Below are positions 27,928 through 52,413 of a stretch of DNA of 64,000 nucleotides, one piece after another. Source of the stretch: Eutypella sp. D-1 (Eukaryota; Ascomycota; Sordariomycetes; Xylariales; Diatrypaceae). The stretch covers positions 310,001 through 374,000 of the forward strand of contig JAJTTP010000016.1 in NCBI GenBank assembly GCA_023313575.1. The letters run 5' to 3'. Position 1 is the stretch's first letter, and every line of letters starts with the position of its first letter. A model generated the notes under the pieces. The model saw nothing but the letters and a program-made list of their open reading frames with translations. It did not search any database and was not told the DNA's origin. A program made the translations under genes and the position numbers.

Positions 27928-30019
27928 CTATCTCGGTTTCTTTTTTTCACGCTGACAATCACGCCTTGGGAGTTGTCGTGATCGGACACTAGAAATTCCC
28001 TGAGCTGTTGAAATTGCAGGATGGTCCTGACTTTCATCGACAATTCTGAGATGGCCTTGTCGTGTTTAAGGATAGCACTAGAACGCTATCGTCTCTGCTA
28101 CGATATGCCCGCCGTGAATGCTCTTCAGAGAAAACGAGAGGTTAGTCTTGAGGTGTATTGTCTAACGTGCTGTTATAGAAGCCAAGGCACTTAGAATTTG
28201 GGTCAGTTCATAAACACAAGATACTGTCCTATGGCCGGAAGTATTAAAGAACACGGCAAGTGCCGGAGGTTCGAGCAACGCAGTCTGTAATTACAGCCAA
28301 CATTGCGACGGTCAGTTTTGATTGTCCTTAACCTCCAGCGATAAATCTTTTGTGATTAGCTGTAGTGATCAGATTGTAGGCAGGATTATTGTTATTTCGG
28401 TAGAAAATTTTGCGTCGTTTAGGCCACTGACGCAGGACCGCGTCCCGCAATTTCTGGACAAATATTCATCACTGAACAGCCAACCTAGGACTTGCGCCTA
28501 TGTTTCCCTCGTGTCGTTACGAGCAAGCTTATCGACGATTCTAGTGCTTGCGAGTGAGTCGTATAGCCAGATCGACAATCTGTACCCTGGTCTCCGTCTG
28601 AACGAAACGTGGGAAACGATCGTTGGAATCTGACAGAGTAAGACCAAATTCATGCTTCCGGATTCTGTATTATAAAGATTAACGTGTTAAGAAGATAGTA
28701 GCGATATATACGATGGGAATCGTATATGAGCCTGGAGGAAAGATGGATCATTAGGTACAGGCTGGTCTGGGGCCCTACTTCCATGGATGAACGAACATCG
28801 GACTTAAGGTCGCTGCTTTCTTATATCCGATCAACACCCCTATTATGGCCCCACTTAATGAAACTTGACTGACCGCGACGGAAATGCAGAGTAGGATAAT
28901 TATTCTGTATATGTCTTGAATTGCCCATCTGCCTACGAAGGTTCTTCACCCTTTGCTTGCCGTGGAATTTTCGGGTTTCTATTTTTGCCCATGGGCCATA
29001 GGCTGAACATCGGGTACTAGGTAATCCATAAGAAAAGCTAACCCTTACCCACTCGGCCTCCCCCCGAAGATTTATGGTCCAGCTATAGTTGGGCCATAAA
29101 TGCTCGCACCCACCTACCAATCAAGACCTGACTCTGTATCAGGCTTATCCACAGGAAACGCTAGATATGGGTAGTTCCTGTATGTAGCTTCCATTTTTCG
29201 TTATGTTGCTGGGTGACCCTAGCGCCCACCTAGCTGGTTGCCCCGGACCCGGGCAACTACGCTTCCGCACTACCCCGCTCCGCGGACAGAATCAAACATC
29301 GACAACTATCTTGTGTGCTACTGCGTTCCTAAAATACGTTGCTTTGGTAGGATTGCCATCCATGACTTTTATTGTCAAAAGTGCCTATGTCGTATTGTGA
29401 TCCAGGGGCAAGACAATGATATCGAATAGTAATTACCTTTTGACCCATGTCCGTAGGAAAGAGATTCTGAAGAGCGCTCTAAGCTGGGGTGTATGTTCAC
29501 TAGGTATTCACACATAATGGTACCAGGAAGAGTCTGGTGATGTACTGTTATAGTGTGAAATGATACCCTGCAGTACCTACGCAGCCATTGATGAAGGTAA
29601 TTGAATGAACCAACAAAGAAAATAGATCACAGCAACGAACAAAGTCTCTTATTCATGGAAATACTCTTGGTTCTATTCTTTGACAGTTCCCTCTGTGTAA
29701 AAGCACTAGCTACATCATCTAGAAAATTCCAAGGATCAAGGTCGTTGACAATCTGGTGCAGCAGGCCTCTTTCGACCTGGCTGCTTTAACCGTTGATCTT
29801 GACATTTCCAGTTAACCCAACACCATTTTTCGCCAGTATCCTTAGCCCCGTCTTGTGAAATACCTCACCACCACTCATTTATACAGCCACCCAACCATGC
29901 AATACCCAGTCTCACACCACAGTAGGAGCAAGAGTTTGTAGCACTAATACGTCCCCTATAGCTCCCCATATGCCCGTCCCATCATTCTCTTCACGGGACT
30001 TAGCGATAGCCACAACAAG
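27928..30019. other. Gene-poor start of the central island
   Basis: Composition returns to normal within a few bases of the end of element O. Short open frames (for example around 28322-28633 and 28821-29120) start at non-ATG codons and resemble no family. I see no gene, tRNA or repeat. The last part is the 3-prime flank of the HMG gene that ends at 30020. Confidence 0.6.
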
Positions 30020-31735
30020 TTACTGTTGGGGACCTGCAGGGTAGTCCAAATATCCCTCGGGATGCTCACCCAGTGCAGGCTGATCAAGATACTCAGCAAA
30101 GAACTCATCGTCTACGTCGAACTCTCCAGAGTCTTGTCCTTCGGTGACGTTGCCAGCCTGGGGCGCGGGCGGTGCCGGGTAGGAGGGCGCAGGCGGTGCC
30201 GGGTAGGAGGGCGCGGGCGGTGCCGGGTAGGAGGACGGGGTTCCCCAGTTGGCGGGACCGGCAAGCTGCGGATCGAGATTGTTCGGGTTGGGGACGCCGG
30301 AGAAAAGGCTATGGGCGGGGAAATCTTGGCTAGTGGCGCCGGGGCCAATGTGGTTGGGGGCAGGAGGCTCGATAGCTGGTTTCTTCTCGATAAGCTGGAG
30401 TTGAGCAGCAGGGCGCTCTTCCTCGTGCTGGTTCTCGATGGCCTTGCCATTTGAGGTAGTGTTGTCTTCCGTATTCGGATTGTTGTTAGATTCACGTTGC
30501 TTCGCTTCGCGGGCCTCATCCTCCTTTGTAGCCAACTGCCTGTAGTGTTCCTTTACATCCTCAGGAGCTGCTCTCCACCTTCTCGCTGCCTCTTTGGCTG
30601 TCGTTATCGTAAGTTATCGGGATTAGTCATTATCAGACGCAACAAGGCCGAGGGCATTGCAACATACCGAGATCACCAAAGGAAATACCCGGCCTCTCCT
30701 CCTTAATCTGCCGGTTCTTGGCCATCTTGTAGATTATGAAGCAGTTTGACTTCGGTTTCTTTGCCTGCTTTCCAGTCCCCTGCGGGTCTTCGATCTCTCG
30801 CTTCTGGCCACGTGGTGCTGCCGACGGGTTGTTGGGTGCCTAACCCAATGACCCATTGTTGGCAGCTCCGTATGTGTTGCCGGTTTGGGTGCTACCGGCG
30901 GTGAAATTCACAGGGTGATTGGCTGGTCCTGGAACACCCTGGTAACCCATAAACTGGTTTCCCGGAGCAGCTTGTAAGCTTCTCGGCTGGATCCTACCAG
31001 GAACAATTAGAGCGCTGCGTGGCATCATGGTGTAAGGACCGTTTCCGCTGATGGCGAACAACATGTAGCCGGCGTCGTCGAAATATTCGTAAGTTCCAAG
31101 GTATACTAGACTAGCCCAGGTGGGTTCGGTAGCGTAAAAGACGCGACGTTTGACTTGTTCACTAGTTATTCAGGAAGCCCAGTTAATAAAATCCATGTGG
31201 AGGATGCCTCTAGATGAAGAGGTGTAGATCAATAATACGTATAGTATTAGGACTGGAGTTGGGAAGTAGAACTCGAGTCTATATTCATGAGCAGTTCTCC
31301 AAGTTTTGAAGAGATATGGTAAGGACAAGCAAGACCTTTTGACTTTAATGACAGTCTCTCTCAGGCGAGAAGGCTCAAGGCGTACATGCCTAGACGGCAG
31401 TTAAAGAAATAGTATACTCGAGAGGTGGAATCTTGTTTTGAAGACAGATGGGGGATACAGTGCTTTTGAAAAAGAAAGACGAAATGGGGCTTGTCTTACG
31501 CCATCAAGCTTTGGATATTCTCTCGCTCCTCGATACTCCAGGTGCTGAAGTCTTGTTTTGGGATTGACGCAACATGGCCACCTGGCGCGATACTTGCCGC
31601 AACTCTGCCCCAGATTGCAAAAACACTCCCATTCTTTGTGGAAGCCTCAGGTCGGACGGAAACGCCACTGGCAGTGGGGCCAGTCGATGGGCCTGGATAT
31701 CCCATGGACTTGGACTTGCCCTTGTTACCATCCAT
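30020..31735 (-). CDS. HMG-box protein 1 (MATA-type box) with an in-frame UAG codon
   Basis: Probable nuclear DNA-binding transcription factor. Exons (minus strand) are 31735-31500, 31161-30668 and 30597-30020, giving 436 codons. The intron ends are GTAAGA/CTAG (338 nt, phase 2) and GTATGT/ACAG (70 nt, phase 1). ATG at 31735 is the first in this frame. Residues about 40-130 form an unrecognised domain shared with the neighbour at 33066-35238 (shared blocks include VYLGT and PY-MM). Codon 186 is UAG (30842-30840) directly after GSLG, and the frame then continues without a break. The HMG box spans about 213-285 (start PKSNCFIIY), interrupted after the first base of a codon at the position conserved in MAT1-2-1 introns. 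The first AUG after the UAG (codon 225) lies inside the box, so a whole box requires the UAG to be recoded. The tail is Pro-rich with three SYPAPPAP repeats and an acidic end. It could be a pseudogene, but all other signals are intact. Confidence 0.85.
30162..30233 (-). repeat. Three 24-bp tandem repeats coding SYPAPPAP in HMG protein 1
   Basis: Units at 30162-30185, 30186-30209 and 30210-30233 differ by a single base. They preserve frame and give a Pro/Tyr-rich linker after the HMG box. Confidence 0.9.
30817..30866 (-). promoter_or_regulatory. Hairpin with the in-frame UAG of HMG gene 1 in its loop
   Basis: In the sense RNA, UUGGGU (30848-30843) pairs with ACCCAA (30837-30832) to close a 5-nt loop UAGGC that holds the stop codon. 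Further out GGGU pairs with ACCC, and GCUGCC (30866-30861) pairs with GGCAGC (30822-30817). The adenosine is preceded by U and followed by G, the context favoured by fungal A-to-I editing. Pairing is read by eye; function is inferred. Confidence 0.7.
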
Positions 31736-33065
31736 CGTGAGTAGAGAAAAGTGAAAAGTTACTGCATGGATTCCGTAAGTTGTGTATGTTTTGGAAAGAA
31801 TGGACGTAGGAGATGGCAGAAAAGATGGCCAAAGCCCAGAAAGTAGGCAATAGAAGGTCAGAAGTGATGGATTTGATGGCAGTAAATGATAGGGAAACAA
31901 GGAATTCAGCACCGAGTCAGTAGTTCGGCTTCCATAATGGGAGAAATTTCTCGATGACAAAGGAAATGGAAGTTGTGGAAAATACTTTTGTGGGCTGGGA
32001 CTTGTCGCCTGATAGGCTGCGAGGAAGGTACAATAGGTTGTAGTGGTGAAAGAGCACAATTCTTTGGGCAATTACGGGACGACAAGGAGTGACTAATAGC
32101 TTGATACTGTTTAATCATGCAACATACTGGACTACTACATTATTCGATAGATAAATACATAGAGAGATAATAACCCGCAGCAACTATCGGTCTCCCATTA
32201 AGCACTATATAAGAAGACGAGGGTGGATGGGTTTATCTTTCAAGACGGTCAATACCAGCTTGAAACCTTGCTCAACTCTACGTGAAGCGCACTGTTTATT
32301 CCATACTACGCAAGTATTTTATGCAAGCGAATCAGCAAGGGGGGGGGGGGGGGTTTACTGACGTACATAGACGCGTGCCCTGTTCCGTAACCTAGTCAAG
32401 GGCCCGAATTATAGCCACATCGAGAGTTGGTGGCAAGGGAATGATTCCAGACAGTCGGCATGTACGCGGTGTTTTCGATATTTATCAGGATAGTAGCTCT
32501 AGTCTATGCTTGATTTACCTCAGTCTATCAACACTTATCGAGTCGAAGCAGCACTTCCCACACAATAGCTTCCGGCGGGTTCTATTAACAGCAACTACCA
32601 ATTCTATCCATAGAATACCATGCTTGGTGTTGTGCGGTGGGGTGATCACTGGTGACCCAGTGGACGGAATCCTGGATTAGTCACAACAGTGTAGAAGGGT
32701 TGGATACGAGTGTCAGTCATTCTCGGTACAACACCATCATACTAAAACTAGAGTTTCTGGACTCTCATAATACTGGAGATCATTCACGGAATCACGATGT
32801 AAAAGTTCATAGATGTAAGATATCCCGGTTGTGTTATTATTAGTATGTGTCAAACCAAACCGATGCAGCCACCAAAGCAAAAAATAGAAAAATCCCAAAT
32901 TTCCTGAACCATTCCCCACATTCCCCCCATTCCCACCATTCCCAGTAGCCAAGATCTTTGCAGTTATGCAATACACGACCAATCCTCCAGCGCGAGCAAA
33001 TTATGTCATATACCCAGTCTATCGCACACACCCGCATGTGTATTCACCCTAGAGCTCAGATAGCT
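31736..33065. other. Intergenic region between the two HMG genes
   Basis: Holds the upstream region of HMG gene 1 and the 3-prime flank of HMG gene 2. A 15-base G run lies at 32339-32353. No gene or element recognised; short frames here start at non-ATG codons or lack support. Confidence 0.55.
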
Positions 33066-35238
33066 CTAATGCCAGCCATTGTTTCCCGGCTGACCCATAC
33101 CATATCCCATGTCACCGAGGTAGTTTTCGTCAGCTCCTACTTGTCTGAACTGTGGATTGTTGTACTCTCCAAAGCCCTCCTGAGCCATTGCTCCGGCATT
33201 CTGGTAGTTGCCGTTCGCGAAGAAAGGAGGAGCCATGGGCTGGTAACCAGGATATTGGGCGGGCATTCCAAAGCCAGGTCCACCTACATTACCCAGGTTA
33301 TAGTTAGGCACTTCGTAAGTGGGCTGGGGGAGACCGGCAGCATATGGCTGGGCGGGGTGTTGAATAGCCGGAGGGGGTGGATAGTATGACTGTTGAGCGC
33401 CATAAGGTTGGAATGGCTGCTGGACTGCCATAGGGGCATGTACCGGCTGCTGAATGTCGACGGGGGTAACAGCCTCCTTCTTCTTGGATGACTTCTTAGC
33501 AACCTTTTTGGCAGCCTTCTCTGCAGTCTTCGAGCCGTTCCTCCTGCTGATCTCTGATGACTTGCGGGGCTTGACCTCGTAGTCTGGATGCAGTCGGGCA
33601 TGCTCGGCCTTCGCTTCATCTGCCTTGTCCTGCCAATACTTCTTTTCGGCAGCATCCACATTTTTCCACATCCTTGACGCTATGGTTCCTGAACGACTTA
33701 AAGTTAGCATTGTGAGGAATATAATAACAATACGGGGGGGGGCTTACCAATTTCGGTGAAGTGAGCTGTCGGATTGTCTCTCCGGATGTCGGCCTGGTGG
33801 TGGTTCTTGAACAATATGAAGCTATTGTTAGGCTTCGGAATGCCGGAGGGCGGCGCCTTATTCCTCCATTTCTTGACCGCTGGAGCTTCAGGGTGCTGCT
33901 CCTCGGGTGCCTTTCTCTTTGTGGCGTCCGAAGGCGCGGGGTGGTTGTTGAAGGCTTCGACCAAGGCTTTGTTGCCGGAGGATGTATTCATGGGTTCTTG
34001 GTTGAAGAACTTGTTCAAGGCCTCCTTGGTGAAGTACTCATCCATGACTTCCCCGTTGATAGGCTCCCCCACGGGATTCTCAGCGATAATCTCCTCCATG
34101 AGGTCCTCCACAGGCTTCTCAACGATGGGTTCCTCTGCGGGCTTCTGGTCGAGAACATCGTCCACATCATTGTTATCTGAGGACGGGGGTGTGGGCTCGT
34201 CTCCGAAGTGGTCGTCCAAAGGTCCATCAAACAGCTCGTCCACGCCTTTGCTATCCGAGGACTCAGGCGTGGGTGTCTCGCCAAAGAGCTCGCCCAATGA
34301 TTCATCATGAATCTCATTGTCGTCGACTGAACTGTTACCGGCAGAAGGGCTCGGAACTTCAGGGTCACACTGGTCTTGTGTTTTCCCGTCAGGACCTGTC
34401 GCGATCTCAGTCGGATCATTGAAGGACTAGCCCAACGATCCGTCATCGATGACGACATGGTCGTCCTTTGCACCTTCGCCGGCGTCGAGAGAGAGATTCT
34501 CTTTGGGGACAGTGGCGTTGGTGACTTGATTGTCACCGCTCGGCACCTCCACCTCCCACTCCATTCTCATCATCGCGTAAGGTTCTTGCCCATGGATGGT
34601 GCGATACAGTTTGTATCCCTCTTTCTGGAAGTCGACCAGAGTGCCGAGATACACACTGCCACTGAGTAGAGACTCGCTGGCATAGACAGCGCGCCCTTTT
34701 CCCATCCGTTCACTAATAAAGAGTACGTTAGTACAAGATCGACCATACGTGATATGAGGTAGGCTTAGATAGCGTGATGTCCACCGGTAAATAGAGATTG
34801 GGGGATCACGTGGTCAAGGCCGCCAACCTCGACCCTTGTTGGAAATGGGTATCCCCATTACAGAGTGGGAAGGAATGGAAGGTGGAAACATGGTGAGTAT
34901 ATCATGGTAAATTGATTGTGTATCATCAAAATTAGGAGATAGTCACGTGGGTAAACTTTTCAGAAGACAAACAGACATGAGGAAATTGAATCAACTTACA
35001 TCATGAGCTCTCGGACCCGCTCTTTCTCGAAGTCACCCCAAGCATCGACCCAGGCCAAGTCATCGATCTCCACGAAGTTGTCTCCAGAGTCCAGCTGAAC
35101 CGCGAGATCCTTCCAGATCTCTGCCACGCGTTCCATCGACTCCTTGTCGGATTGTTTGGTGACGTTGGAAGCATTAGGTACGGGCATGGTGGCGGACTCA
35201 GCAGACTGGTTTCCAGAGATGTTGTTGGTAGAAGACAT
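33066..35238 (-). CDS. HMG-box protein 2 (MATA-type box) with an in-frame UAG codon
   Basis: Tandem paralogue of the gene at 30020-31735. Exons (minus) are 35238-35000, 34712-33748 and 33688-33066, giving 609 codons. Introns are 287 nt (phase 2, GTAAGT/TTAG) and 59 nt (phase 1, GTAAGC/TCAG), at the same positions and phases as in the paralogue. Residues about 30-130 are the shared N-terminal domain (WKDLAVQL, VYLGT, PYAMM). UAG is codon 175 (34429-34427), again right after GSLG, and the frame continues. Next come an acidic Pro/Asp/Glu-rich region with PTP-SSD repeats, the HMG box (about 372-443; FILF through HPDYEVKPRKSSEISRR, typical of MAT1-2-1/Ste11-like boxes), a Lys-rich stretch and a Gln/Pro/Tyr/Gly-rich tail. 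Flanking genes are not those of a mating-type locus. Expected nuclear. Without recoding, only the 174-aa N-terminal part is made. Confidence 0.88.
34412..34442 (-). promoter_or_regulatory. Hairpin with the in-frame UAG of HMG gene 2 in its loop
   Basis: In the sense RNA, CGGAUC (34442-34437) pairs with GAUCCG (34417-34412). Inside, UUG pairs with CAA across a small bulge, and GG pairs with CC to close a 5-nt loop CUAGU containing the UAG. The stems differ in sequence from those around the UAG of the paralogue, but the placement of the stop in the apical loop is the same. Pairing by eye; role inferred. Confidence 0.65.
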
Positions 35239-36455
35239 TGCGGAGGAGGTGAACTTGTGGCTGATGGGTAATTAGAAGCTTCGTTAGATCCAGGAGGATT
35301 GGTAATAAGCTCCAGATAACGAAAGCTAGAAGCACAAGATGAAATTGTGAATAGTGTGTAGAAGCTGACGCAAATGAAACAAGTTTTTTTTGGGTTTTAT
35401 GGTAGATAGTAAAGAGTCGTGTGGTCCCTGGCTGATGAAGATGGCAACAGAGATTGTCGACAAGAGTAGTAGAGTGCGCGGTAGTAGACACAATAACTGA
35501 GATCAAGAAGTAGTAGAGTAATATTAATGACCTAGTCAGTGATGAGGAAGCTTCGTGATGAGGGTGGCTAGTAGAGTTGTTGTTGGGGTGAAGGCTTTTG
35601 GGTTTGGTGATAGAGATGCCCAAAAAAAAAGTTGTAAGTTTTAGGAATGATGGTTGAAGAAGAATAGAATTCAAGAAGGGGAGGGGTGTTTAAATATGTC
35701 ATCAGAATTGGGGAATTGTGGGTCCTGTTGGGTTTCTTCAAATAGGTATAGGTACATATTTGCTTAGGGGCTAAACGTGAAGCTATCGCCACTAACTCAT
35801 ACCGTGTACTTGCAAAAAAGTATGGTGGTGACAGTTGGCAAAACCACAACATGAAAGGTACCTCACTCAAAATGGCGCAGCATGAGCCCCACATGATAGA
35901 TTCTTATTAGTATTCATTTATAATAAGTCCAGAATTTCTCTATTTCCTAGTCTATATACTGGCAATAGTAGGAAGCCTAACAGAGGCTCCGGATTTTGAT
36001 CAAGACCCCATTTGCCCTAATCATGATCAACTAGAGCGGGCAGGCAGTGCTTATATATGCAATGATCACTACAGAGATGTACCTCATATGTTCCTATTTC
36101 AACTCGGTTGCATGAGGAACATCCAAAGTTCTACGTTCAAGTACCTGTTGCTAGTGCCGTTCTGGTGCGGCTAACGGGGCGGTTGCTCGGCTGACTGTAT
36201 GGTTGTCAGGGCAATCTCGCAAACAGTAGTCACGTTTGTGGTAGAAGCTTGCCATGTGACCTTATCACTGGTTGCAAATCACATCTCAGGCTGCTAAATA
36301 TAGATGCCAACTCATCACACCTAGGTGTTTAGCGTATATTCATTTGACTACGGAACTACCCCCGGAGTCTAGTCACCAGTCTACCCCCCTCCATCAGGCT
36401 AGTCTTTCTATTCTACCCATTGTGATTGCTATCAACTACCTATTGTGATAGAGGA
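35239..36455. other. Upstream region of HMG gene 2 and 3-prime flank of the hydrolase
   Basis: No gene is supported. The first several hundred bases upstream of the HMG gene 2 ATG contain long stretches without a clear promoter motif and probably hold its 5-prime leader. Confidence 0.5.
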
Positions 36456-37712
36456 CTAGGTCTTATCAGTTCTTCCCGGGGCAAGAGCGTTCTTGGAGAG
36501 GAAGTTGGTGATGGCAGCGTAGGTCACAGGCCAAGTATATTCCTATAGTGGCGATTAGTAAGGTGGTCATGATATCTCCAGAGAGAATGCTTACCAAATT
36601 CAAGCCGTGACCAGCATGGTCAATTACTGTTGGCTGGAACGCGGTCGTCATAGGATAGTAAGGCTCTGACACGTCCAGTATAGACGACGCGTTGGCGGAG
36701 CCAGTCGCGTAGCAGTCAAGGCCACAGAATATAATGTCGTTCTCTGTGACGCGTGAGTATCAGTCATTGCCTTGTATTGTGAAGAAAAGTGATACTCACG
36801 ACCTGTAATGATGGCCACCGGGCCCGTCATATTGTTGATTCCCGGTGGCCCAGTGGTAAGCATCTCGCCGATGGCTACAGGCTGTGCTGCATTGTATGCC
36901 GCCTCCAGGACCACGGGGTCGAACTGCCCAGCCGCGAAGAAGACCATATGTTGACCTATTTCGCTGTTCGTGATAAGATAACCGTGATCGTAGTCCTCTC
37001 TCCCAGGCTTCGAATGTGCGTCGTTTAACTCTAAGCTTATCATTCCCCACGGCTGGTAATCAGATACATGGCTGAACCCGGTTAACACCATCCCATCAGA
37101 GATCTTGGGGTCCATGCTCGTCAAGGCGTTGGTGTAGCTGGATCCCTGAGAATGGCCGATGTGGACGATCTTTTCGAATGTGGCGGGGAGGCCTTGTATG
37201 CCGCCATCACGTGCTTGTAGGGTTAACTCACGGAGCGCAGCAACTTCGAGGGCTAGCTGTATCTCGTTGACAGGATCGCCATGAGATGATTCGCCAAGGC
37301 CAATGCGGTCCCAGGAGAGGGTAGAGTAGCCATGGTCTACGGCATAGTTGACGTAGCTGTAGTTGTACTGGTTGATCGGGAAATCCCAGTAGCCACGGTC
37401 GAATCCAATGCCGTGTGTCAAGATTTGAAGAATGTTGGATGGTCCAGCGTCGGGCTCGCAGTAAGTCGTGGCCAATTCGTAGTCTCCAGAAATGTTGACG
37501 GTTTCCGGCACGGGAGTGGTGCCATCTCGCAATGACTTCAAGAGGTTAAGGACGAAGTCTGTAACCTCAATACTGGTCTCTGGGACAGTAACGTCCAGAA
37601 CAGCGTTCTGGGCAGTCAGAGCCACGGGAACGGTGATGTTCTGGCATTGCCGTGCGGCAACACCAGTCACAGCAACTATTCCGCTCACGACTGCAAGGCG
37701 ATGGAGATACAT
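36456..37712 (-). CDS. Secreted alpha/beta-hydrolase
   Basis: Exons (minus) are 37712-36800, 36743-36595 and 36542-36456 (382 aa). Introns of 56 and 52 nt have GTGAGT/CACAG and GTAAGC/ATAG ends. Residues 1-20 form a signal peptide ending near GVAARQ. The alpha/beta-hydrolase fold is shown by the oxyanion-hole segment HGIGFDRGYWD (100-110), the nucleophile elbow GHSQG (186-190, Ser188) and a late His in DHAGHG (346-351); the acid is probably in the GLDCYATG-DVSEP region of exon 2. Several NxS/T sites fit secretion. The substrate cannot be read from sequence; esterase or lipase-like activity is likely. The gene lies alone in the island between the HMG pair and RIP block 2. Confidence 0.85.
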
Positions 37713-39878
37713 TTTGTCGTGGTTTGTGGGCGCACAAAGTTGATAAGCGAGGTAGATAAGAGAAGGCGAGGCAAAGACGCTGTGATCTCTGATTTGAAAA
37801 TGCCTTGATTGAACGGGGGACGTCTCTATTTATCTACAAGAATCTCTTGGTATGTCATGCCCGGTCCAAATCTTTCGAGCTGCCTTCACAAACTGTCTTT
37901 ATTATCTGATGGGAGCGATGTGGCGGCCATAGTTGTGATAATTGATATATTGTTTGCGAGGCCATGTTCGTAGGACCATCTTGGTATCCTCCAATACCTC
38001 TACAAGACGCAAAAAGTACGCTTACATGCCTCCACCTGATCTCACCTTCAGGTACTAATCCGACATACGCTAGAAACCGTATGAATCTATATCTCGAGGT
38101 ACTCAATGATTCTATTTCCACTGGGTTGCCTTCAAGATTTTGCCTCGTCTTTTTCCAAGATGATCATGCCCTTAATCATTGTCAGTCGAGTAGGATTAGA
38201 TACTCGCTGTTTTCTACGACTATTATTTCACCGATACTACATATGATATTAGCTCCAAAAATGCAGAGTTCGAAAATATCGACACAGACGAAATCGTAGT
38301 GTCGTCAGAATTAAGGCCCGGAGTTTGTCAATGAACTACGGCGGTTTCTTAGTGGAAGGCCGGAGCAATCCGGATATTGATGGCAATCCCTGTTCATTCA
38401 CGGCGTCATTTAGGGCTGAGTCTTACATTGATATCCACTCCTCGGAAAATCGCGAGAACTTGATAAATATTTAGCATAAACTTAGGCTGGTATAGGCGCG
38501 CTGTAGATTGAATGCCGATTGAATGCTTCGTTCATTGGCCTTGTGGGTAGGTATGTCGTGCAAATAGCACGGTTGATCACGTAAGATAGGAGAAACCCGC
38601 CACCAAAAAGACCCCGCAGGGTATGGCTGGTGGATTATATGGTGGCACAGCATTTGAGGCGTATGCACAGTACTTTTAGATCATTTTTTTCGCCGCATAG
38701 TCTGTGACATGATTTGTAAATGTCGGGGACCCAGTGAAGGAAACATTGGAATTAGCTCCCGCCTACTAAATGTTATCTCTGGAAACTTGTTCACCAGGGC
38801 TACATCATTATCAGCCGTCCCTTGACTGCGGACGGAATCAATACGGTGTGAATCCAATATTACAGGCAGCAACAACTACAGCATGACTCGTATCGCGAAG
38901 GGAGGGTTTGCTGGAACATTTTCCATACCAAACTTGACGGACGAAAACTTGCATTTGTAATGATTAGGAGACGTATGCAGTTTGACCATCAGCCATCACT
39001 ATATTCCTGGGCGCAATGCTTGCCAGCGCAATGTGTGTACCTGACCTACCTACATCTGTAAAGCGTGACGTCTCATTGCTGCCAAGATTTGCTAGGTTGA
39101 ATCAAAGCAGCCAGGGGAGTGGTGAAGCGCTTCTTGCTCTATATATAAGATCTCGGGGTCTCGGACACTACCACGTTCCTACCAACAGATCTCGAAAACA
39201 ACGAGTGGATTCTCCTTCATCTACAATAATTACCCGCTGTCATCTCCGAATCCGCAGAGAGTTTCTACGCTATAACTGCCGGGCATCTATCGCACCACTC
39301 CGAAACATCAGGGTGCCAAGGTCGATCCGAAACGAACAGACGAAGCAAGGCTATCCCGAAGCGGGTGACCAGGGGTGGGGAGAGGGACGAGTTGAGGTCC
39401 CTTTTCGGCTCCTGAACTCCACCTTAGTGTGGATACCTTCAGGGGCTATCGGTACGTACTTACGTACCTATCTACTGTTAAAGCGGAGCACAATTGGTAT
39501 AGAACACTTTTGTACCCATGTATCGCTCCACTTATATCTACACTGAACCAATCATATTCCATAACTACGTACGAACGGGGCCAGTTTCTTAAAAGTACCT
39601 AGGTACCCATGTAACTGGGCGTAGCCACAATGCTATTGCGCCGCTGCGGCTATAACTTGCCTGTTGACTTGGAAGGGCCGAGTGATGAAGGCAACTATGG
39701 TATGCTGCTTGGTCTTCTACTACGTATCCTCCCTGCGCCTCGAGTATGCAGAAACCTTGTTGCGTGATCGGCGACAATTCTATCTTGGCGTACCTGAGAT
39801 TTTGTCGATGTTTATCAGATACGACCGCCATCATCACTGGAGTCCGTGCCCTTTAGGTGTTTTAGCCATATGGGTGGA
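37713..39878. other. Intergenic region before RIP block 2
   Basis: No gene supported. An open frame at 39016-39546 (176 codons, ATG start) shows no recognisable domain, biased composition or intron signals and is probably chance. The word TACCTAGGTACC occurs at about 39596. The stretch next to 39879 is not visibly RIP-mutated. Confidence 0.5.
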
Positions 39879-40240
39879 TTTATAAACATTTTAAGGCATA
39901 GGTGCGTTACGCGGTTTAATTTTTATACGTTATATTAAAAAAAGCGTAAATGTTTTTCTTTCGATTAATTTATATTTTTTATATTAAATACTTATAGTAA
40001 ATATATAACTTATATACGTATTAATTTAATATAATAATAAACCAGTTTAAAAAAAATTATTTAAAATTAAAAATAATTAAAATATATTAAATTAAAAATA
40101 ATTATTAAATATTTAATATATAATAAAAAAATAAAAAAATATTTTTTAAACCGGTAATAACGCATTTATATTTTTAAATTTATTATTATAAAAGTAAAAG
40201 TTTTAAATAAGTTTTATTAAATTTATAAAGTTATTTATTT
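39879..40240. mobile_element. Short AT-rich element, apparently an internally deleted copy of the outer element of block 2
   Basis: Its left part (39879 to about 40050) recurs, with RIP-type changes, at 40238-40415. Its right part (about 40150-40240) recurs at about 54230-54322. The segment AAGGCATAGGTGCGTTA (39893-39909) is inverted, with RIP-type changes, at 40158-40174, giving imperfect terminal inverted repeats. This arrangement fits a non-autonomous derivative of the element spanning 40238-54322. The class of transposon is unknown. Confidence 0.6.
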
Positions 40241-40720
40241 ATAAATATTTTAAAATATAAATACGTTACGCGGTTTAATTTTTATATGTTATATTAAAAA
40301 AACGTAAAATTTTTCCCCCGGTTAATTTATATCTTTTATATTAAATATTTACGGTAAATATATAACCTATATATATATTAATTTAATATAATAATAAATT
40401 AATTTAAAAAAAACAATTTATTTTTATATTTATTATTATTAATTTTTTTAATTAATTATAATTAATCGGATAAAATACGGGATAAATTTATAAATAAAAC
40501 GGTTAAAAAAGCGGTAAAATTTTACCGGGCGATATAATTAAATAAAATTTTTTATAAATAAAATATTTTTTAATACCCGGTTTAAAAAAAAAAATTTTAT
40601 AACTTTTGTTTTAAAATTTAAATACTTTTTTTACCCTTTTTTTTTTATAAAAAAAATTAGTTTTTCATAATTTTTTTTCGAATTTTTTATAACTTTATTA
40701 TGATTTATAAAAACATTATA

Positions 40721-41151
40721 TATAACGGCCGGTCTATTCCTAACTATTAGTCCAGTCGAGTGGTTTATATTAACAGGAATACTAAGGGATTTAAGTAATA
40801 AATAGTTACGTTTAATAATAATAAAGAAAAAAGTATTTTAAGTAATTAAGTTATATTATAAATTAATAAAGTTAAAGAGTATTTAAAAAAAGGTAATAAA
40901 CGTAATTATATACTATTTATATCCTTTATTTTTAATATTAAAATATATAATTATTATTAAATCGTTAAAATTATATCCGAATATAACGATTTAATATCGT
41001 TAAGATTATTACCGATTTAACCGATCCTTTTTAGTCGTGTAACGCATATGGCTTATTTTAATATGGCTGTTTTTTTCTCCAGAACTGGAGTTAAGGATCT
41101 TTTCTTATTATGTTAGCCCCACTCGGCCCAATGGCCCGACCGGTTATAACA
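40721..41151. mobile_element. Solo LTR I
   Basis: 431 bp from TATAACGGCCGG (mutated TGTAACGG) to CCGGTTATAACA, flanked by TTATA (40716-40720 and 41152-41156). Same end module as F, H, M, N and K. Confidence 0.9.
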
Positions 41152-41156
41152 TTATA

Positions 41157-42350
41157 AAATATTAAAATAACGAAATCGAAATAAGCCGTTATTATTACGT
41201 TTACGGCTTTTATTTACCCCGATAAATTTATAAACGCCGATTAAAATATAAACGTTTATAAAAAATTCGATTAATTTTATTAATATTATTTATTATATAT
41301 AATTAAAATATATAAAAACTTTATAATTTTATAATTTATTTATAATATTTACTTAATATTTATACGATTTTAAAATAATACGATTATAAATTGTTAATAT
41401 ATTATAAAGACTTAAAATTTAATTTATTTCTACGTTTTTAAAACGATTAAAAATACCGAAAAATATATTAATTATTATAATAATAAATATATTTTAATAA
41501 AAATACGATTTTTTACGGCCTTTTTTTAATTTATTTTTATATCGGTAATATATTATAAAACTTTTAAATTATTACCGATTAAAATTATAAAAAGCTTTAT
41601 AACGTTTTTATAACCGTTTATATTTAAACTTATATTACCCGGGCTTTTACCGATATCCGCGTTTTTAATAAAATAAGTAATAAAGTTTTATACTTTTTTA
41701 CGATATTAAAATAATTCGTTAACGGTTTATTGATTATTTATAAAAATAACCGCTTTTTATAAAATTTATACGAAATAAAAAAAACTGGTAACGATTTTAA
41801 AAAAGAATTTAAGTTTAAAATAAAAATTCGGGGTTTTTACAATACGTATACGGATTATAAAAGATATTATAATTAAACCGTAAATATTTTATTTTTATTT
41901 CGTATATAAATTATAAAAATTAAAAACTATTTTATTAACCCGAAATATAATTCTTTATTTTTTAATTTATTTATAATCTTTTTAACGATTTTATTAAAAT
42001 TTATAATTTATATAAACATTTTATAACGCGTATTAAATTTATGAAAACCTTATAAAAATACCGAAATTAATCCGTAAAAACTTAAACCCGAATTTTAATT
42101 ATATTAAAAAATTATAAACTTATTAGTTTAATTTTTATTTATAAAAATAATTATTTATTACCCCGAGTTTAAAAATACCGGTAAATTTATTTTTATAATA
42201 AACCGTTTATATAACGATAATAAAATAACCGGTAACGTTTTAAAATATTATTTAATTATATTTAATAATTAACGGTTTAATAATTAAATTTTTTATTTTA
42301 TTATATTTATGTTATAAACAAATTATGCCGTATTTTTACGGAAATTATAA
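41157..42350. other. Internal remnant of the outer block 2 element
   Basis: AT-biased DNA between I and K. No open frame, no recognised motif. Confidence 0.4.
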
Positions 42351-42355
42351 CTTAT

Positions 42356-45300
42356 TATAACGGCTGGTCTATTCCTAACTATTAATCTAGTCAAGGGATT
42401 TATATTAATAAAAATGCTAAGGTTTTTAAATAATAAGTAATCACGTTTAATAATAGCAAAAAAAAATATTTTAGGTAACTAAATTATATTATAAATTAAT
42501 AAATTTAAAAACTATTTAAAAAAAAGGTAATAAACGTAATTATATATTATTTATATTTTTTATTTTTAATATTAAAATATATGGTTACTGTTAAATCGTT
42601 AAAATCGTATCCGAATATAACGATCTAATATTATTAAAATTATTACCGATCTAACCGATCTTTTATAATCGTATAGCGTATATGGCTTATTTTAATATAA
42701 TTATCTCTTTTTTTAAAACTTAAGTTAAGGATTTTTTCTTATTATATTAACTTTATTAAGCCTAATGGCCCGACCGGTTATAATACGATCTTTCCCTTTT
42801 TAAAGTTTTATTTTTAAAACTTATTCCGTTTTTTTTATATCTTTTAATAAATTCCTTTTTTTTTTCTTTTTATTTCTTTTTTTCTTTATATTTAATTATA
42901 TATTTAAACGTATTAAATTTTTTATAAAAATAACGTAACGTAATTCTTTTTTAATTACCGTATTATCCGATAATCTTTTTAATATAACTCCTTATTTTTA
43001 TTATAAACGTTATTACTTTAAATATAAAGTTTCGGAATCGGATTTTTCTCGTTATTTTTTTTATATTTAAAAAAACCAGCCTCGATATAACGTTTTTAAC
43101 CTTATTACCGAACAGCTTTTTAAAATATCCTTTTAACATCGTAAATTAAAAACGGAACTTAAAAAGGTTATAAAAGTTAAAAAACGTGCAAAAACGCATA
43201 CTTAACGTATTTAAAAACAGAAAAAAATATAATATAAAAAAATAATAAAAACGGTATTTTATAATATCGATAATTTAAAAAAATTAAAAAAATTAAAAAA
43301 GAAAAAGCATCGGGCAGAAAATATACGTTTTACGGGGTTTACTAAAACGTTAATAAATCTTAAGGTTATTCCGGATTTTAATTAATCTGGAATAAATATA
43401 TCGGGTAATTTTAATTAAAATATTATTTTTATTAACGTTTTTATCGGTATTAATAAAAGATTTTTAAAAAGCGTTAAACGTTTATTAAATAATTAACAGG
43501 TTTTTATATATTTTCGGAATTATTATATCTTTTTTATTTAATTTTATATTTTATTCGTCCATCCTTTATTCGTATATTTAAAATTTCTTTTATTTCGTAT
43601 TCGTTTGTTTTTATTTCGACGTTATTTTGTCCTATTTTTATAACGTTTATATTCATTACGTTTTCGAGTAAGGAAATATAAAAAATTAAATAAATCTTAA
43701 CTTTTAATAATAAATTTAATTCGTAATTATTTTTTAATATTGTTTTAATAATTAAATACGGTCCGATATATTTATAATTAAATTTTTTATTAAATCGTTT
43801 TATCGTAATATTTTTAATAATTAAATAAACCATATCCCTTTCCGAAAAAATTAATTTTTTTAACCTTTTTTAATTATAATATCTGCTTATTTGTTAACGT
43901 ATAAATTTAAGTTCTGCTTTTATTTTTTTATATAATTATTTAAATTATTCCGATATTAACATAATTTTAATATTATTTAATCCTTTTTTATAAACATTTT
44001 AATAAACGTCCGGGGTAAATCCGAAATTAACGTTAATAAGTATTATCCGTATATTTTTATAATAGGTTATGTTATAAGCTAATTATATAATAAATAACCA
44101 TTTTATTTAATTATTTTATTTATAATTAATATATTATCGAAAATAAGCTTTTAATATTTAATTAATTCGTTTTGTTTATCCGTTTACTTAAAGCTTAAAA
44201 GTTGTTATAAATTTAAGGTTTAATCTTAATCTTATTATAAAATTTTATTAAAATTTTAATATAAATATCGTTCTTTTATCGGAGATAATTTTAAATATAA
44301 AGCCGTATGTTATTATAATATGTTATAAAAAAATATATGCTATTTATTTTACGTCGGTGTTTTTATTATATGGAATAAAATAAAAAATTTTTATAAATTA
44401 GTTAACGATTATAAATATGCTATTATAACCGTTACGTATTATTAAATCTTTTAATATTAATAATTTAATAATAAAATCGAATATAATAAATTTTTATAAT
44501 CGTTTATTAATTAATAACGGTTATAATTCTCCGTAAGGTTTTTATCGTTTTATTTTAATTTTTCCATATATATTATATTGTTATCGTATTTATTATATTA
44601 TTGATTTTATTTTATCGAATATATAGGTCCGTTATAATCGTTTAAAAAATTTATAATCTTTTAAATATCCGTATAAAGGATATTTGTAAATCTTTTATAT
44701 TAACTATTCCTATAATTCTTATAATATTTATAGCTTTTTTATTTATTTTTTTATTAATAATTTATTATTATATTATTTAATTTATTTATATAGGTTATTT
44801 TAAATAATTTTAATAACAGTAATTTGTTATTATTCCAGGTATCCTTTTAACGTTTATCGGAATACCGCGTATTTAATTAATATGTACTTTTTTTTTATAA
44901 TAAGCTACCTATTAATAGTATTTGCTTATCCGTTTTTTAATCTTTTTTTATAAATAATAATATAATCAAATTCCGTAAAATACTTAACGTATTATAACTA
45001 TTTTCCGTTAAGGGTTTAAGTGGTAAAAAAATATGTAATATTTTTATGGTCGGTATAAACCTTAATTTAATACATTTTTTTATAAAATAATATTTAAATT
45101 TTTTAAATACGTTAACGATAATAAGAAATTCCTTATCGTAAATTAAATAATTAAATTCGGTTTTAATAAGTTTATAAAAATAAAATGCGATAAAATATAA
45201 TTTTCTTTTTTTATCTCGTTATTTAATTTATACTCCGAAAAGGTAATCCGAAACGTTAGTTTTTAACTTAATAGGTTTTTTAAAATTGTATATAATAAGT

Positions 45301-48300
45301 ATTAATTCGTTTATTTTATTAATCCATATAAACCGTTTATTTTTTTTTATTAATTCCGTAAAAAATGTTATAATATATCTAAATCGTTATATAAATTTCC
45401 GATAATAATTTATTAAATTAAAAAAAGTTTATACTTTTTTTATATTAATAAACATTTTCTAATTTTTAATAATTACGATTTTTTTAAGGTTTATTTTAAT
45501 ATATTCGGAAATAATAATATATTTAAAAAATTCCATTTCCTATATATAAAATACACTTTTTTCGGGTTTTATTAATAAATTAACGTTTTATAATATTTAT
45601 AATATTTTATATATATATTTTTCATATTATTTTTTTAAATTTAAATAAATAAAAATATCGTTAAAATAATAAATAACGAAAACATTAAAATATTTTCGTA
45701 ATACGTAATTAATTATACGTTAAAACGATATTAATACGTTAATTAATCCGAAAAACATAATTAAATATTTAAATAAGCCTTATTTCGTTTTAAAAGTTAT
45801 TTTTTATTCGTTTCCGGGTTTAATTCTAATATAATAATATCCGTTTTTAAGGTTTAAAGTAATAAATTATTTAGCTCCGTATAAGCGGTTTTTTATTTCG
45901 GTAATAAATAATAACGGTATTTAGTTTTTAATAATAATTTCGTTTAATTATCCATAATCAATTATTAGTTATAATTTACCGGTTTTTTTAAGCATAAACA
46001 TAATAAAATATCCTGTTAATAATTTTAATTATCGGATATATCTTTTTATTAACTTATTTTCGAGGTACTTTTATAATTTCTTAAATTCGATTTTATTAAA
46101 GTTATAAATTTTATAAAATCGTAACGTTTTTTTTTTATAAAATAATCTCGTAATCCCATTTATTACGGTTTAATAATCCTTTTTTAAATTTTTCGCGAAA
46201 TATTTTATTATATTAATAATATTATAATAATACGTTACGTATTTATAATATCGTTATATTTTTTTTTTAAAATGTTATTAAAAAAACGGAATCGTTATCG
46301 GATAAATACGATAATTTATTTAATCCTTTTTTCTTATCTTTTTTTTTTAATTCGTCGTATTCTTTTAAATAAAATTTCTATTATATCCTTATATCCGTAC
46401 TTGTTATTTATTAAATATTAAAATTTTTTTTTTAAATTATTATCAGTTTTTAAAAAATAAGGAAATATTATTTAGCTAATTTTTTAATTAATCGATAAAT
46501 TATATTAATATAGCCATGGTTATTTAAAGATTATATCGTATCCTTTTAAAAATATAATATCGAAAATAACGTTTTATTTTTATTTTTCGATATATACGTT
46601 AAATTAATCGGTCTCCCGTAATATTTTTTTTTTATCGTATTTAAAAACATAACTTTCGGTTCCTGTTATATTATAAAAATATTATTTCTTTTTTTATAAT
46701 AATTATAATTTATTATATAATTTTAAAATTATATAATTACCGTCGGTTCTGTTATTTATTATAACGGTATATTAATTATTTTTAACTTTTATTCGTATTA
46801 TAATATATCCGTATCGTTTTTAAACTTTTAAAATAACTTATAAATATCGTATTACGTTTTTAAGTTTTATAATACCGTTTTATAGCCTTAATATAAACGG
46901 TTTTAATTTTTTAAATCCTTACCGTAAATTTATATAACGTTACGTAAATTATTAAAACGTTTTTTTTTATTAAATTCTTTTTATATATATAATTATTTTT
47001 TTATTATTAAATTTTCGTAAAAATGTTTAAAACTAATTTTATTAAAGGTTATCCTTTTTAATAAATTTTTATAAACGTATAAATCGGCGCTTAATAATTT
47101 ATTTTATTAATATCGGATTTCGTGTTTTTACCATTTAATCTCGTTCCGGATTTTTATAGCTTTTAATATTTAATATATATATTTATTATAATGGCATACC
47201 TAATATCCTCCGGGGTAAAATATTTTTTTTAACCATTTTTAACCATACGGTACGCGGTTAATATAACGTGTAATTTTTTTATATTATCGTTAATCGGTTT
47301 TATCTTTTTTTTATTATAAAAAATCAAATCTTTTTTTAACTATTTATTTAATTCGGTTAATAATACCGATTTTTCGTTCCTTATATTAATAATATTCGTA
47401 TTTTCGGTAATTAACGGGGTATTTTAAAAAATACGGTATCCGAGTTTAAATTTTTTAATTAATAAATTTATCCTAATTACGAAATTATTATAAATAAATT
47501 TTAAATCGTTATTTTTTAAAACGTTATTAAAATCGTTTAATATAAATACCGTACATTTTTTTAGTTTATAATTTTATCGGTTTTTAAATTAATTAATTAA
47601 TCGTTTTATTTTTTTTTTTTTACGAAATAAGTTTTTACGAAAGCTTTTTTTTTATTATTATTAAAATACTTATCCTGTTATTATTAACGTTATCGTTTTA
47701 TTACGGCTTAAGTTAATTATTTAACCTTTTATAATTTTTATTAATAAATATTATTATCCGAATATACGTAACGGATTATTTTAAACGTTCTTTTACCGGT
47801 AAAGGATTATTTTCCTTCGGGTATAGGTTTCCAGTTTTTATTTCGTTTAAATCTTTTATATTTTTTTTTAAAATATCCCATTTTATTATAATTATAACAT
47901 TTAATTTATCGTTTATTTTTTCGTATTATATTAAACGATATAAATCCTAATACCGTCCCGTAAAATATATCGGTAAGTTTTTAATTTTAATTCTTATTAT
48001 TTTAATATTTTTTAAATCCTTTAAATATATAATATCTTTTTTTTTCCTAACGTTATTTAAATTATTTATTATTAATTTTAATTATTAAAGTAACGAACTT
48101 ATTAATAATATTTAATTTATCGTATAAAATAATCTTATCTTTAACCGTATTTTTAAATCCTCGGTAAAACGTATCGATAAAAAACTTATCGTCCTTTTAA
48201 TCGGTTTTTATTACAAATTATTTAAATTACGTAACGTAAATATAAGCTATTCCTTTTTATTTAAAGTTTAAAAGTTATTATGTAATGGTTTAAATTTTAT

Positions 48301-49178
48301 CCGGGTTTCCGTAATTAGTTTTTACTTTTTTTACGAAATTCTTATATTTTTTAAAAAAACGTTTAATTTCCGTAATTCTTTTTTTATTTTTTATTTTTAT
48401 AAAAGCATTTAAAATAAGTTTAAATTATTAAATTATCTTTTCGGTAAAACATAAAATAATATCGAAAATCTTATCGGTTTTTTCGGTTAATATATAACGT
48501 TATTAATATAAATAAGTTACGGCTGTAATAAAAAAAGGTCGTACGGGGGTAATGCCATTATAAGGTTTAAGTTTTTTAAGCTTAAATTTAACGGGTATAA
48601 TCTTTTAAGTTACGGTTATAATCGCTATTTATTTAATTCGTTCGATTTGTTTAAGTAATAACTTAATAATTTATTAAAGTTTTTAACTTAAAAAAAACAT
48701 TTTATTAAATATTATTTAAAGTTAATAATATTATTAAATAAAAGCTTATAACGTATAACGGCTAATCTATTCCTAATTATTAATCTAATTAAAGGGTTTA
48801 TATTAATAAAAATGCTAAAGTTTTTAAATAATAAATAATCACGTTTAATAAAAAAAAGGTGTTTTAAATAATTAAGTTATATTATAAATTAATAAGCTTA
48901 AAAACTATTTAAAAAAAAAGTAATAAACGTAATTATATACTATTTATATCTTTTATTCCTAATATTAGAATATATGGTTATTATTAAATCGTTAAAATCG
49001 TATTTAAATATAAAGATCTAACATCGTTAAAATTATTACCGATCTAACCGATCCTTTATGGTTATATAACGCATATGGCTTACTTTAATGTGGTTATCTC
49101 TTTTTCTAAAACTTAAGTTAGGGATCTTTTCTTACTATATTAGCCCCATTAGGCCCAATGGCCCGACCGGTCATAACA
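42356..49178 (-). mobile_element. Element K: full-length Ty3/Gypsy chromovirus-type retrotransposon, RIP-degraded
   Basis: LTRs at 42356-42785 and 48754-49178 are flanked by CTTAT (42351-42355 and 49179-49183). Total 6,823 bp, coding on the minus strand, collinear with element B. The integrase C-terminal segment at 43534-43833 is still open; it leads into chromodomain-like sequence (EYEIKEIL, then a frame continuing past mutated Trp codons near 43540). The purine tract precedes the left LTR as in B. Gag would lie towards 48700. Unlike B it has no nested insertion, so it shows the empty sites of C and D. Confidence 0.92.
43534..43833 (-). pseudogene. Integrase C-terminal/chromodomain remnant of element K
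   Basis: A 99-codon stretch that escaped stop codons. The order IGPY, LLLKVKIY, FYISLLEN and EYEIKEILNIRIKDGR matches the end of Ty3/Gypsy integrases followed by the start of a chromodomain. Composition is shifted to Ile/Lys/Asn/Tyr, as expected after C-to-T mutation on both strands. It is not a functional gene. Confidence 0.8.
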
Positions 49179-49183
49179 CTTAT

Positions 49184-49960
49184 AAATATTTTTAAAATAA
49201 CTTTAACCCGTAATAATTTATTTTTTAAAATAAATAACGTTTTTTTATATAAAGGTTTTTAATTATAATATAAATAACGGCATAAATTTAAAGTTATATG
49301 TTAATATACCCGATTAATTTAATAACCGGTTTATATATTAAACCGGGCATGATTTATTACCGGTAACCCCGATTATAATATTAACTTTTTTTCGCTTTTT
49401 ATCCGTTTTATTAATTTATAATAATAAATAAAAATAATTTTTATTTAATAATAATTATACGTATATTAAAAATAATTTTAATACTTTAAATTTATTTTTA
49501 TTTTTAAAAGTTTTTACCGAATAAATTATTTTATTAAAACGTAAAAAACCGTGTTAAATTAATATAAATACCGCATTTATTATTAAAATATTTTAAAAGT
49601 TTTTTTTTATTATATCGTTTATAATTTTATTAAAAATTTCTTTATTAATTAAATTTTTCGGTAACTTTTTATTTAAATATAAAAATAAATATATCGCGTT
49701 TTATATTAACCGTTACAAATATAAATTTTCGAATATTAATATATCGAAATCGAAATTTATATAAACCGATTATAACGTAAATAAATAAATTATAATCGTT
49801 AAGCTTTAAATTCTATTAAATTAATTACGACCGAAAACTTTATTAATAACGTATTTCTTTAATATTTCCGGGTTAACCGGTTATAACTTAATTTGTTTTT
49901 AATTTATATTATAACTTAAACGCTTATATTATTAATTTATAAAACCGTTCTGTTTTTTTT
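49184..49960. other. Internal remnant of the outer block 2 element
   Basis: RIP-degraded DNA without open frames between K and L. Confidence 0.4.
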
Positions 49961-49965
49961 AATAA

Positions 49966-50390
49966 TATAACGGCCGGTTTATTCTTAACTAATAATCCAG
50001 TCGAGGGGTTTATATTAATAAAAGTGCTAAAGGTTTTAAGTAATAAGTAGTTACGTTTAATAAAAACAAAGGTATTTTAAATAATTAAATTATATTATAA
50101 GCTAATAAATTTAAAAATTATTTAAAAAAAAGGTAATAAATATGGTTATATATTATTTATATCCTTTATTCCTAATACCGGAATGTAATATTAGATATTA
50201 AATCGTTAAAATAGCTGGGTTATCCAGATTGTTTAAGATTATTAAAATAGCTGGGCTATCCAGGTTATCCTTTTTATCACGTGACCTAAGTAAGGCTTAT
50301 CTTATCGTGGCTATCCCTTCCAGTGCCATGGTTAAGGATCATGTTTGTGCTAATCCTATTTAGGCCTAATGACCTAGCCAGGTTATAATA
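49966..50390. mobile_element. Solo LTR L
   Basis: 425 bp, flanked by AATAA (49961-49965 and 50391-50395). Body and end module (GACCTAGCCAGGTTATAATA) match element A and solo LTR G. Confidence 0.9.
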
Positions 50391-50395
50391 AATAA

Positions 50396-51486: not shown

Positions 51487-51491
51487 ATAAA

Positions 51492-51921
51492 TGTTATAAC
51501 CGGTCGGGCCATTAGGCCTAGTGGGGCTAACATAATAAGAAAAGATCCCTAACTTAAGTTTTAAAGAAAGAGATAGCTATATTAAAGTAAACCATATACG
51601 TTATATAATTAAAAAAGATCGGTTAAATCGGTAATAATTTTAATAATGTTAAATCGTTATATTTAAATACGATCTTAACGATTTAATAATAATTATATAT
51701 TTTAATATTAGGAATAAAAGATATAAATAATATATAATTACGTTTATTACCTTTTTTTTTAAATAATCTTTAAGCTTATTAATTTATAATATAACTTAAT
51801 TATTTAAAGCACCTTTTTTTTTTATTACTAAACGTAACTATTTATTACTTAAAACCTTAACACTCCTGTTAACATAGACCTCTCGATTGGACTAATAGTT
51901 AGGAATAGACCAGCCGTTATA
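51492..51921. mobile_element. Solo LTR M
   Basis: 430 bp in reverse orientation (starts TGTTATAACCGGTCGGGCC, ends CCAGCCGTTATA), flanked by ATAAA (51487-51491 and 51922-51926). Confidence 0.9.
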
Positions 51922-51926
51922 ATAAA

Positions 51927-52408: not shown

Positions 52409-52413
52409 ATATT

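Follow-up and report, generated by a model that had tools for sequence, protein, structure and literature searches.

An in-frame UAG in a predicted hairpin loop is common to four diverged HMG-box paralogues of Eutypella sp. D-1 and may be recoded by mRNA editing

Two tandem HMG-box genes, here called g1 and g2, each carry a single in-frame UAG between a shared N-terminal domain (N-domain) and the HMG box. They lie in a 64,000-nucleotide stretch of the Eutypella sp. D-1 genome (contig JAJTTP010000016.1, positions 310,001 to 374,000), which we call the window. The UAG is the only break in these genes, the frame and introns downstream of it are intact, and the same stop is common to deeply diverged paralogues; an earlier note on this DNA had described two such genes, and the pattern is wider, extending to four. 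Folding predictions place the A of this stop in a hairpin loop, at the position that A34 holds in the anticodon arm of a tRNA. Since the four sites agree with the published preferences of fungal A-to-I mRNA editing, we infer that the UAG is edited to UIG and read as UGG (Trp), which would turn these regulators from an N-domain protein into a full HMG protein. Judging from the sequence, we give this reading a probability of about 0.83; the editing would probably take place in sexual tissue. The features of the two genes, in window coordinates and with lengths in nucleotides (nt) and base pairs (bp), are these:

33066..35238, minus strand: HMG gene 2 (g2), with exons 35238-35000, 34712-33748 and 33688-33066; 608 codons before the final stop, with a single internal UAG.
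34427..34429, minus strand: in-frame UAG of g2, codon 175, directly 3' of Gly-Ser-Leu-Gly.
34553..35127, minus strand: shared N-domain of g2, approximate extent, with coordinates derived by hand from the gene model; intron 1 interrupts it, and Pfam gives no match.
34412..34442, minus strand: predicted hairpin of g2, a 12-bp stem including G-U pairs and a 7-nt loop, CUAGUCC, with the A third.
30020..31735, minus strand: HMG gene 1 (g1), with exons 31735-31500, 31161-30668 and 30597-30020; 435 codons, with a single internal UAG.
30840..30842, minus strand: in-frame UAG of g1, codon 186, directly 3' of Gly-Ser-Leu-Gly.
30832..30848, minus strand: predicted hairpin of g1, UUGGGU-UAGGC-ACCCAA, which can be drawn as 6 bp with a 5-nt loop or as 5 bp with a 7-nt loop.

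The three-exon models bear out what the earlier note had claimed of the two genes. Both have an in-frame UAG after Gly-Ser-Leu-Gly, the joined frames and the Pfam matches confirm that it is the sole internal stop and that it falls between the N-domain and the HMG box, and downstream of it the frames are open and the introns join in phase. All introns of g1 and g2 begin with GTAAG or GTATG and end in AG, and three of the four contain a CTAAC/CTAAT branch-like motif, intron 1 of g1 being without the exact form. The HMG box (PF00505) lies downstream of the UAG in both genes, at residues 371-439 in g2 (E 5.1e-18) and 215-275 in g1 (E 8e-12), and the nearest solved structures to the box-containing piece of g2 are SOX boxes. 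The note had also argued that the next AUG of g1 is already inside the box; this is true of g1, whose first Met behind the UAG is within the HMG box, but the argument fails for g2, in which Met codons are present between the UAG and the box. A threefold repeat at 24-nt spacing (30161-30237), coding for SYPAPPAP-like units, is present in the third exon of g1.

Relatives were sought with proteins as queries in the source genome (48.5 Mb, 72 contigs), in which the window is C8:310001-374000; the whole-genome search used the single proteins g1, g2, g3 and g5 together with PF00505. Three further genes combining the N-domain with an HMG box (g3, g4 and g5) lie about 75 kb from g1 and g2, in a stretch of C8 that we call L024 (matches at C8:260.9-268.7 kb):

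L024:2385-2545, 2752-3341, 3423-4000: g3, with its UAG at 3056-3058, after Met-Trp-Gly.
L024:5116-5327, 5525-5901, 5974-6068: g4, with no internal stop.
L024:8131-8339, 8605-9209, 9293 onward past the end of L024: g5, with its UAG at 8957-8959, after Ala-Gln-Gly.

The last frame of g5 is open up to the end of L024, and the gene ends beyond it. Four of the five family members found with an HMG box show a single UAG in an otherwise intact spliced frame. In each of these four a Gly stands directly before the UAG at the N-domain/HMG junction, in the context GGGYUAGKC, and in all five members exon 1 stops two bases into a codon. Pfam scores the HMG boxes of g1 to g5 at 45.9, 65.7, 46.1, 47.5 and 27.2 bits against a cut-off of 25.4, which g5 passes narrowly; PF04769 (MATalpha_HMGbox) is matched by g4 alone, below cut-off (E 0.014). 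The HMG boxes of g1, g2, g3 and g5 are 18-38% identical in pairwise comparison, and the N-domains of the other five relatives (the sixth family member is described below) are 20-33% identical to that of g2. Because Gly-UAG is common to four genes despite strongly diverged HMG boxes and N-domains, the UAG site appears to be old and kept, and a recent nonsense mutation or gene conversion explains it poorly. The earlier note's suggestion that the UAG was inherited and retained, as opposed to arising by independent nonsense mutations, is thus strongly supported by its presence in four of five members.

A profile scan of 232 kb of C8 and the other loci examined gave no further member at E < 0.2. 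The genome has other HMG matches on C34, C45, C1, C6 and C25; of these, the C34 locus alone was looked at beyond the match. Pfam has no name for the N-domain: among the six N-terminal sequences searched, one member matches Rax2_2 at E 0.039. Compared with solved structures, the N-domain finds de novo designed chains as its best matches, which we take for chance.

The sixth relative, on contig C67 (L025, C67:653500-662500; minus strand, 5207 to about 4362 of L025), has the N-domain and no detected HMG box, none of the genomic HMG matches lying on C67. Its N-domain frame stops at a UAG (4502-4500) that is followed, by eye, by 45 open low-complexity codons. This UAG is likewise in a hairpin loop, GCUGC-AUAGG-GCAGC, with the A third of a 5-nt loop, and is possibly a candidate stop-loss editing site. 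The UAG-less g4 reads Leu-Gly-Lys near the place where the other members carry the UAG. By eye, it also contains an in-frame 54-nt intron-like stretch (L024:5716-5769; GTAAGA, CTAAC, GCAG), which may be spliced or retained, the frame being unchanged either way.

An N-domain protein standing alone, as on C67, raises the question of whether the UAG is simply the true end of such a protein, with the HMG box made separately from another start or transcript. The Met codons between the UAG and the box of g2 would fit this. However, g1, g3 and g5 have no Met in that interval, and the linker frame is open straight from the UAG in all four UAG genes (no promoter search was made in the interval between N-domain and box). 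We rejected a separate HMG cistron on the missing Met codons of these three genes, and regard it as scarcely credible.

The surroundings of the UAG favour editing. In the lowest-energy folds of both 31 and 61 nt, a hairpin loop holds the A of the UAG in all four UAG genes and in the C67 relative, and the predicted probability of this A of being unpaired, with flanks of 15, 20, 30 and 60 nt, is at least 0.999 in the four genes and at least 0.997 in C67. The anticodon loop of a tRNA has 7 nt with standard numbering, and in g1, g2, g3 and g5 the U and A of the UAG are the second and third bases of a 7-nt loop, the register of U33-A34; the C67 relative differs in register, with its A third in a 5-nt loop. 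The stems adjoining the 7-nt loop have 5 bp in g1, 12 in g2, 7 in g3 and 3 in g5, where an A.A mismatch and then four pairs follow. Stems as long as these occur at a fraction of 0.012 (g1), 0.0002 (g2), 0.002 (g3) and 0.06 (g5) of 5,226 UAG triplets, drawn from both strands of the C8 pieces and the window (overlaps between pieces counted twice, the g1 and g2 sites included and L024 excluded).

Stability sets the sites apart in a similar way. Among 1,297 control UAGs, which are the other UAGs of the window and L024, those that lie in a hairpin of at least equal 31-nt stability number 5 for g1, 16 for g2, 2 for g3, 1 for g5 and 37 for C67; among the 304 of them with a guanine-plus-cytosine fraction (GC) of at least 0.5, the corresponding numbers are 5, 13, 2, 1 and 26. 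No other UA site in the same coding sequences is as stable (0 of 42 in g1, 0 of 45 in g2, 0 of 28 in g3 and 0 of 45 in g5). Equal stability is reached by 0.35% of flank shuffles for g1, 0.7% for g2, 0.35% for g3, 7.75% for g5 and 2.1% for C67, and by 0.35%, 1.45%, 31% and 2.2% of synonymous codon permutations for g1, g2, g3 and g5. When the four genes are aligned without gaps, 89.3% of the cells in seven stem pairs (a count that includes the pair closing a 5-nt loop) are paired, versus 39-54% in slid versions of the alignment, and three of the seven pairs have changed on both sides (U-A/C-G, U-A/G-C and a loop-closing U-A/C-G). In the UAG-less g4, the 31 nt at what we judge to be the equivalent place fold to only -1.7 kcal/mol, the linker of this gene being too diverged for confident alignment. 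An Rfam search of positions 29000-36500 gave no match.

The hairpin also bears on programmed ribosomal readthrough of the stop, which would yield a fraction of full-length protein at all stages. An intact frame behind a conserved stop is what readthrough would call for, and in all four genes the UAG is followed by G or U and then by C. Known readthrough stimulators, however, lie downstream of the stop, and the known motif is UGA-CUA, from which the contexts found here (UAGGCA, UAGGCA, UAGUCC and UAGUCG) differ. Here the stop itself is enclosed in the hairpin loop, and a ribosome would presumably have opened the hairpin on arrival. Readthrough also leaves such an enclosing hairpin unexplained. 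On the sequence context and the position of the hairpin, we consider readthrough highly unlikely.

Editing of the UAG is consistent with what has been published on fungi; the works cited here by PMC number are drawn on in extracts. A-to-I mRNA editing is reported from Sordariomycetes and Pyronema and is carried out by Tad2-Tad3 with Ame1 during sexual reproduction (PMC11087585, PMC11156358). The normal site of Tad2-Tad3 is tRNA A34 preceded by U33 (PMC11169179, PMC11156358). Fungal A-to-I sites have U at -1 in 85.74% of cases and lie in hairpin loops in 62.4%, rising above 70% at high editing levels, and the preferred triplets are UAG and UAA (PMC4817773). We therefore picture the tRNA deaminase Tad2-Tad3, retargeted to mRNA by Ame1 in sexual development, as the enzyme that would deaminate the A of the UAG. 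The resulting UIG would be decoded as UGG (Trp) and ribosomes would make the full HMG protein, while unedited mRNA would give the N-domain protein only, so that the UAG would act as an RNA-level stage switch on a family of regulators. The earlier note had already proposed A-to-I editing, and its proposal gains from the stable hairpin loops in the A34 register (four of four), the two-sided stem changes and the lack of a stable hairpin in g4; editing itself, its stage and a short protein in vegetative cells are suppositions now as they were then. DUF726, the Ame1 domain, has five matches in four places of the source genome. For the Ame1 MV/KN marker, pieces of two DUF726 loci give GE and AR by offset alone, which is uninterpretable without the Fusarium sequence.

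Several observations weigh against editing of these sites. DUF726 proteins also occur in fungi without known mRNA editing (PMC11087585), and the domain is not specific to editing. By itself the motif GGGYUAGKC is frequent, with 950 genomic sites versus 1,242 for the reversed pattern, and stops between two frames that are each open for at least 100 codons show no preference for UAG (7 UAG, 7 UAA and 8 UGA in 232 kb). A UAG in some hairpin loop is also common, being found for 48% (31 nt) and 29% (61 nt) of the 1,297 controls and for 61% and 34% of those with GC of at least 0.5, so it is stability, register and recurrence that carry the argument. The stem of g5 is weak, with its 3 bp before the mismatch and the highest share of equally stable flank shuffles, and the codon choice of g3 adds little beyond the encoded residues, since nearly a third of its synonymous permutations are equally stable. 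The two-sided changes rest on four sequences, and shuffles reach their count in 41 of 500 cases, the covariation score in 16 of 500 and the percentage paired in 11 of 500. Finally, no other edited gene was found in the source genome as a positive control among the kinases and DNA methylases searched. For a PUK1-like control, 122 of 220 kinase candidates were scored; several matches hold a TAG, of which only that at C8:226271 was read. For a RID-like control, five DNA methylase matches of at least 40 bits have no internal stop, and one match of 30.2 bits holds an unread TAG.

The in-frame TAG at C8:226271 (L028), in a MAP-kinase-like match, has the look of an ordinary intron acceptor and a weak 31-nt fold of -3.9 kcal/mol. 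It is a useful false positive for six-frame stop counts.

Introns are also the basis of another explanation for the UAGs of the HMG genes, namely that alternative splicing removes the stop through an intron spanning it; splicing alongside editing is known in FgBUD14 (PMC11156358). We scanned for frame-keeping GT-AG pairs spanning the UAG, taking donors up to 300 nt upstream of it and intron lengths of 40-400 nt, and such pairs are numerous (90 in g1, 138 in g2, 108 in g3 and 81 in g5). With a donor score of 5 or 6 out of 6 and a CTRAY branch motif, five candidates are left in g2 and three in g5, but none in g1 or g3 within the limits of the scan. One g2 candidate, of 210 nt, would take out mainly linker. 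The other four, whose donors lie 223-227 nt upstream, would cost the N-domain a large part of its exon-2 half; all three g5 candidates extend into the start of the HMG box, and the good candidates of the two genes are at differing places. In g3 one candidate, whose donor scores lower (4 of 6) and which has a CTAAT motif, ends at the UAG, and the intron-like stretch of g4 lies near the corresponding place. Use of the UAG as the acceptor of intron 1 would, as worked out by hand, shift the frame in all four UAG genes, since their intron 1 follows the second base of a codon. Splicing would moreover leave the hairpin and its register unexplained. On the intron scan we rejected an intron across the UAG, and we think it improbable.

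The genomic setting of g1 and g2 suggests yet another possibility, that of pseudogenes or genes in early decay, with nonsense mutations made for example by repeat-induced point mutation (RIP). RIP can convert TGG or CAG to TAG, and the two genes are flanked by AT-rich blocks of the RIP type, at 4001-28000 and 40001-54000 (GC 0.14-0.23, RIP composite index 0.79-1.07). Such DNA makes up most of the window, and a RIP signature is what one expects of a filamentous ascomycete. The gene island itself is nevertheless without RIP signature (composite index -0.13 to -0.42), and RIP-made nonsense was rejected on this composition. Pseudogene decay was rejected on the frames of g1, g2, g3 and g5, which are otherwise unbroken: their joined models have no second stop or frameshift, and their introns are in phase. 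The place of the UAG is, in addition, common to four deeply diverged paralogues. We hold decay of either kind to be very improbable. The island and the other features of the window are as follows; a search of the window for tRNAs found none.

28001..40000, no strand: island of normal composition with g1 and g2, GC 0.45-0.51, no RIP signature, in 2-kb steps.
36651-37829, minus strand: open reading frame upstream of g2 on the same 12-kb island, 393 codons, whose match to an alpha/beta hydrolase (PF12697) is weak, at 25.6 bits and under the cut-off.
561-2639, plus strand: threonyl-tRNA synthetase-like gene, with TGS, tRNA_SAD and class II core domains.
56991-58493, minus strand: CoA transferase gene.
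59894-62977, plus strand: Nrap protein gene.

The proposed editing of an in-frame UAG to Trp would place the HMG genes beside the premature-stop-correction (PSC) genes of Fusarium graminearum, PUK1 and about 70 others (PMC4817773, PMC11156358). With these they share an in-frame UAG in an intact gene, the U at -1, the A in a hairpin loop and an expected UGG (Trp) product. In the extracts, the Fusarium PSC genes are presented as individual genes, whereas in the family studied here the site and the hairpin are common to four diverged paralogues, whose editing and sexual expression are proposed from their sequence. The nearest precedent we found is CHE1 of Fusarium (PMC11169179), also a transcription factor in which a conserved UAG, in a predicted hairpin loop, precedes the DNA-binding domain, and also without a conserved Met downstream. 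CHE1 is a C2H2 zinc-finger protein; its site is shared by closely related Fusarium species, and editing of it has been shown in hyphae, whereas here the family is HMG and the UAG is conserved among deep paralogues. The likeness to the tRNA anticodon arm edited at A34 by Tad2-Tad3 (PMC11156358, PMC11169179) consists in a 7-nt loop with U second and A third and, in three of four genes, in a stem of at least 5 bp. The element here lies in mRNA, and the likeness is to the anticodon arm in general.

The HMG box also links the family to the sexual-cycle factors MAT1-2-1, MAT1-1-3, FMF1 and PaHMG8, and the orthogroup containing MAT1-2-1 varies in copy number in Sordariomycetes (PMC11708053). The extracts of that work describe no UAG switch in these factors, and the genes studied here have in addition the shared N-domain without a Pfam match; the comparison is by description, not orthology. 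In the openly licensed literature, no HMG premature-stop family was among the matches listed; the supplementary tables of Fusarium PSC genes lie outside this scope, and an HMG gene in them is possible. PSC genes as such are already known, and we judge the UAG and hairpin common to diverged HMG paralogues to be new.

A larger and more tentative proposal, to which we give slightly less than an even chance, is that of an ancestral, family-wide switch. An anticodon-arm mimic containing the UAG would have been gained before the HMG regulators duplicated, and selection would have kept the stop, the register and the stem. The sexual-stage enzyme would then turn the whole set DNA-binding, the N-domain form might be an active competitor in vegetative cells, and g4, having lost the stop as well as the hairpin, would have escaped from it.

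Tens of thousands of mRNA editing sites are known in fungi (PMC11156358), and individual sites are reported to be often not conserved (PMC5381528); it is a matter of debate whether such editing is adaptive or tolerated. In the present family, whose members are likely to regulate gene expression, the stop codon and its hairpin have apparently survived gene duplication and a very large divergence of the proteins. Gene-prediction programs may break up genes of this kind or give them spurious introns, as is reported for PUK1-like genes and CHE1 (PMC4817773, PMC11169179). The family offers a set of natural tRNA-arm mimics for testing recognition by Tad2-Tad3-Ame1. If the UAGs are edited, a single enzyme would turn on a set of regulators, and the family would be unusually clear evidence that selection has favoured a recoding switch.

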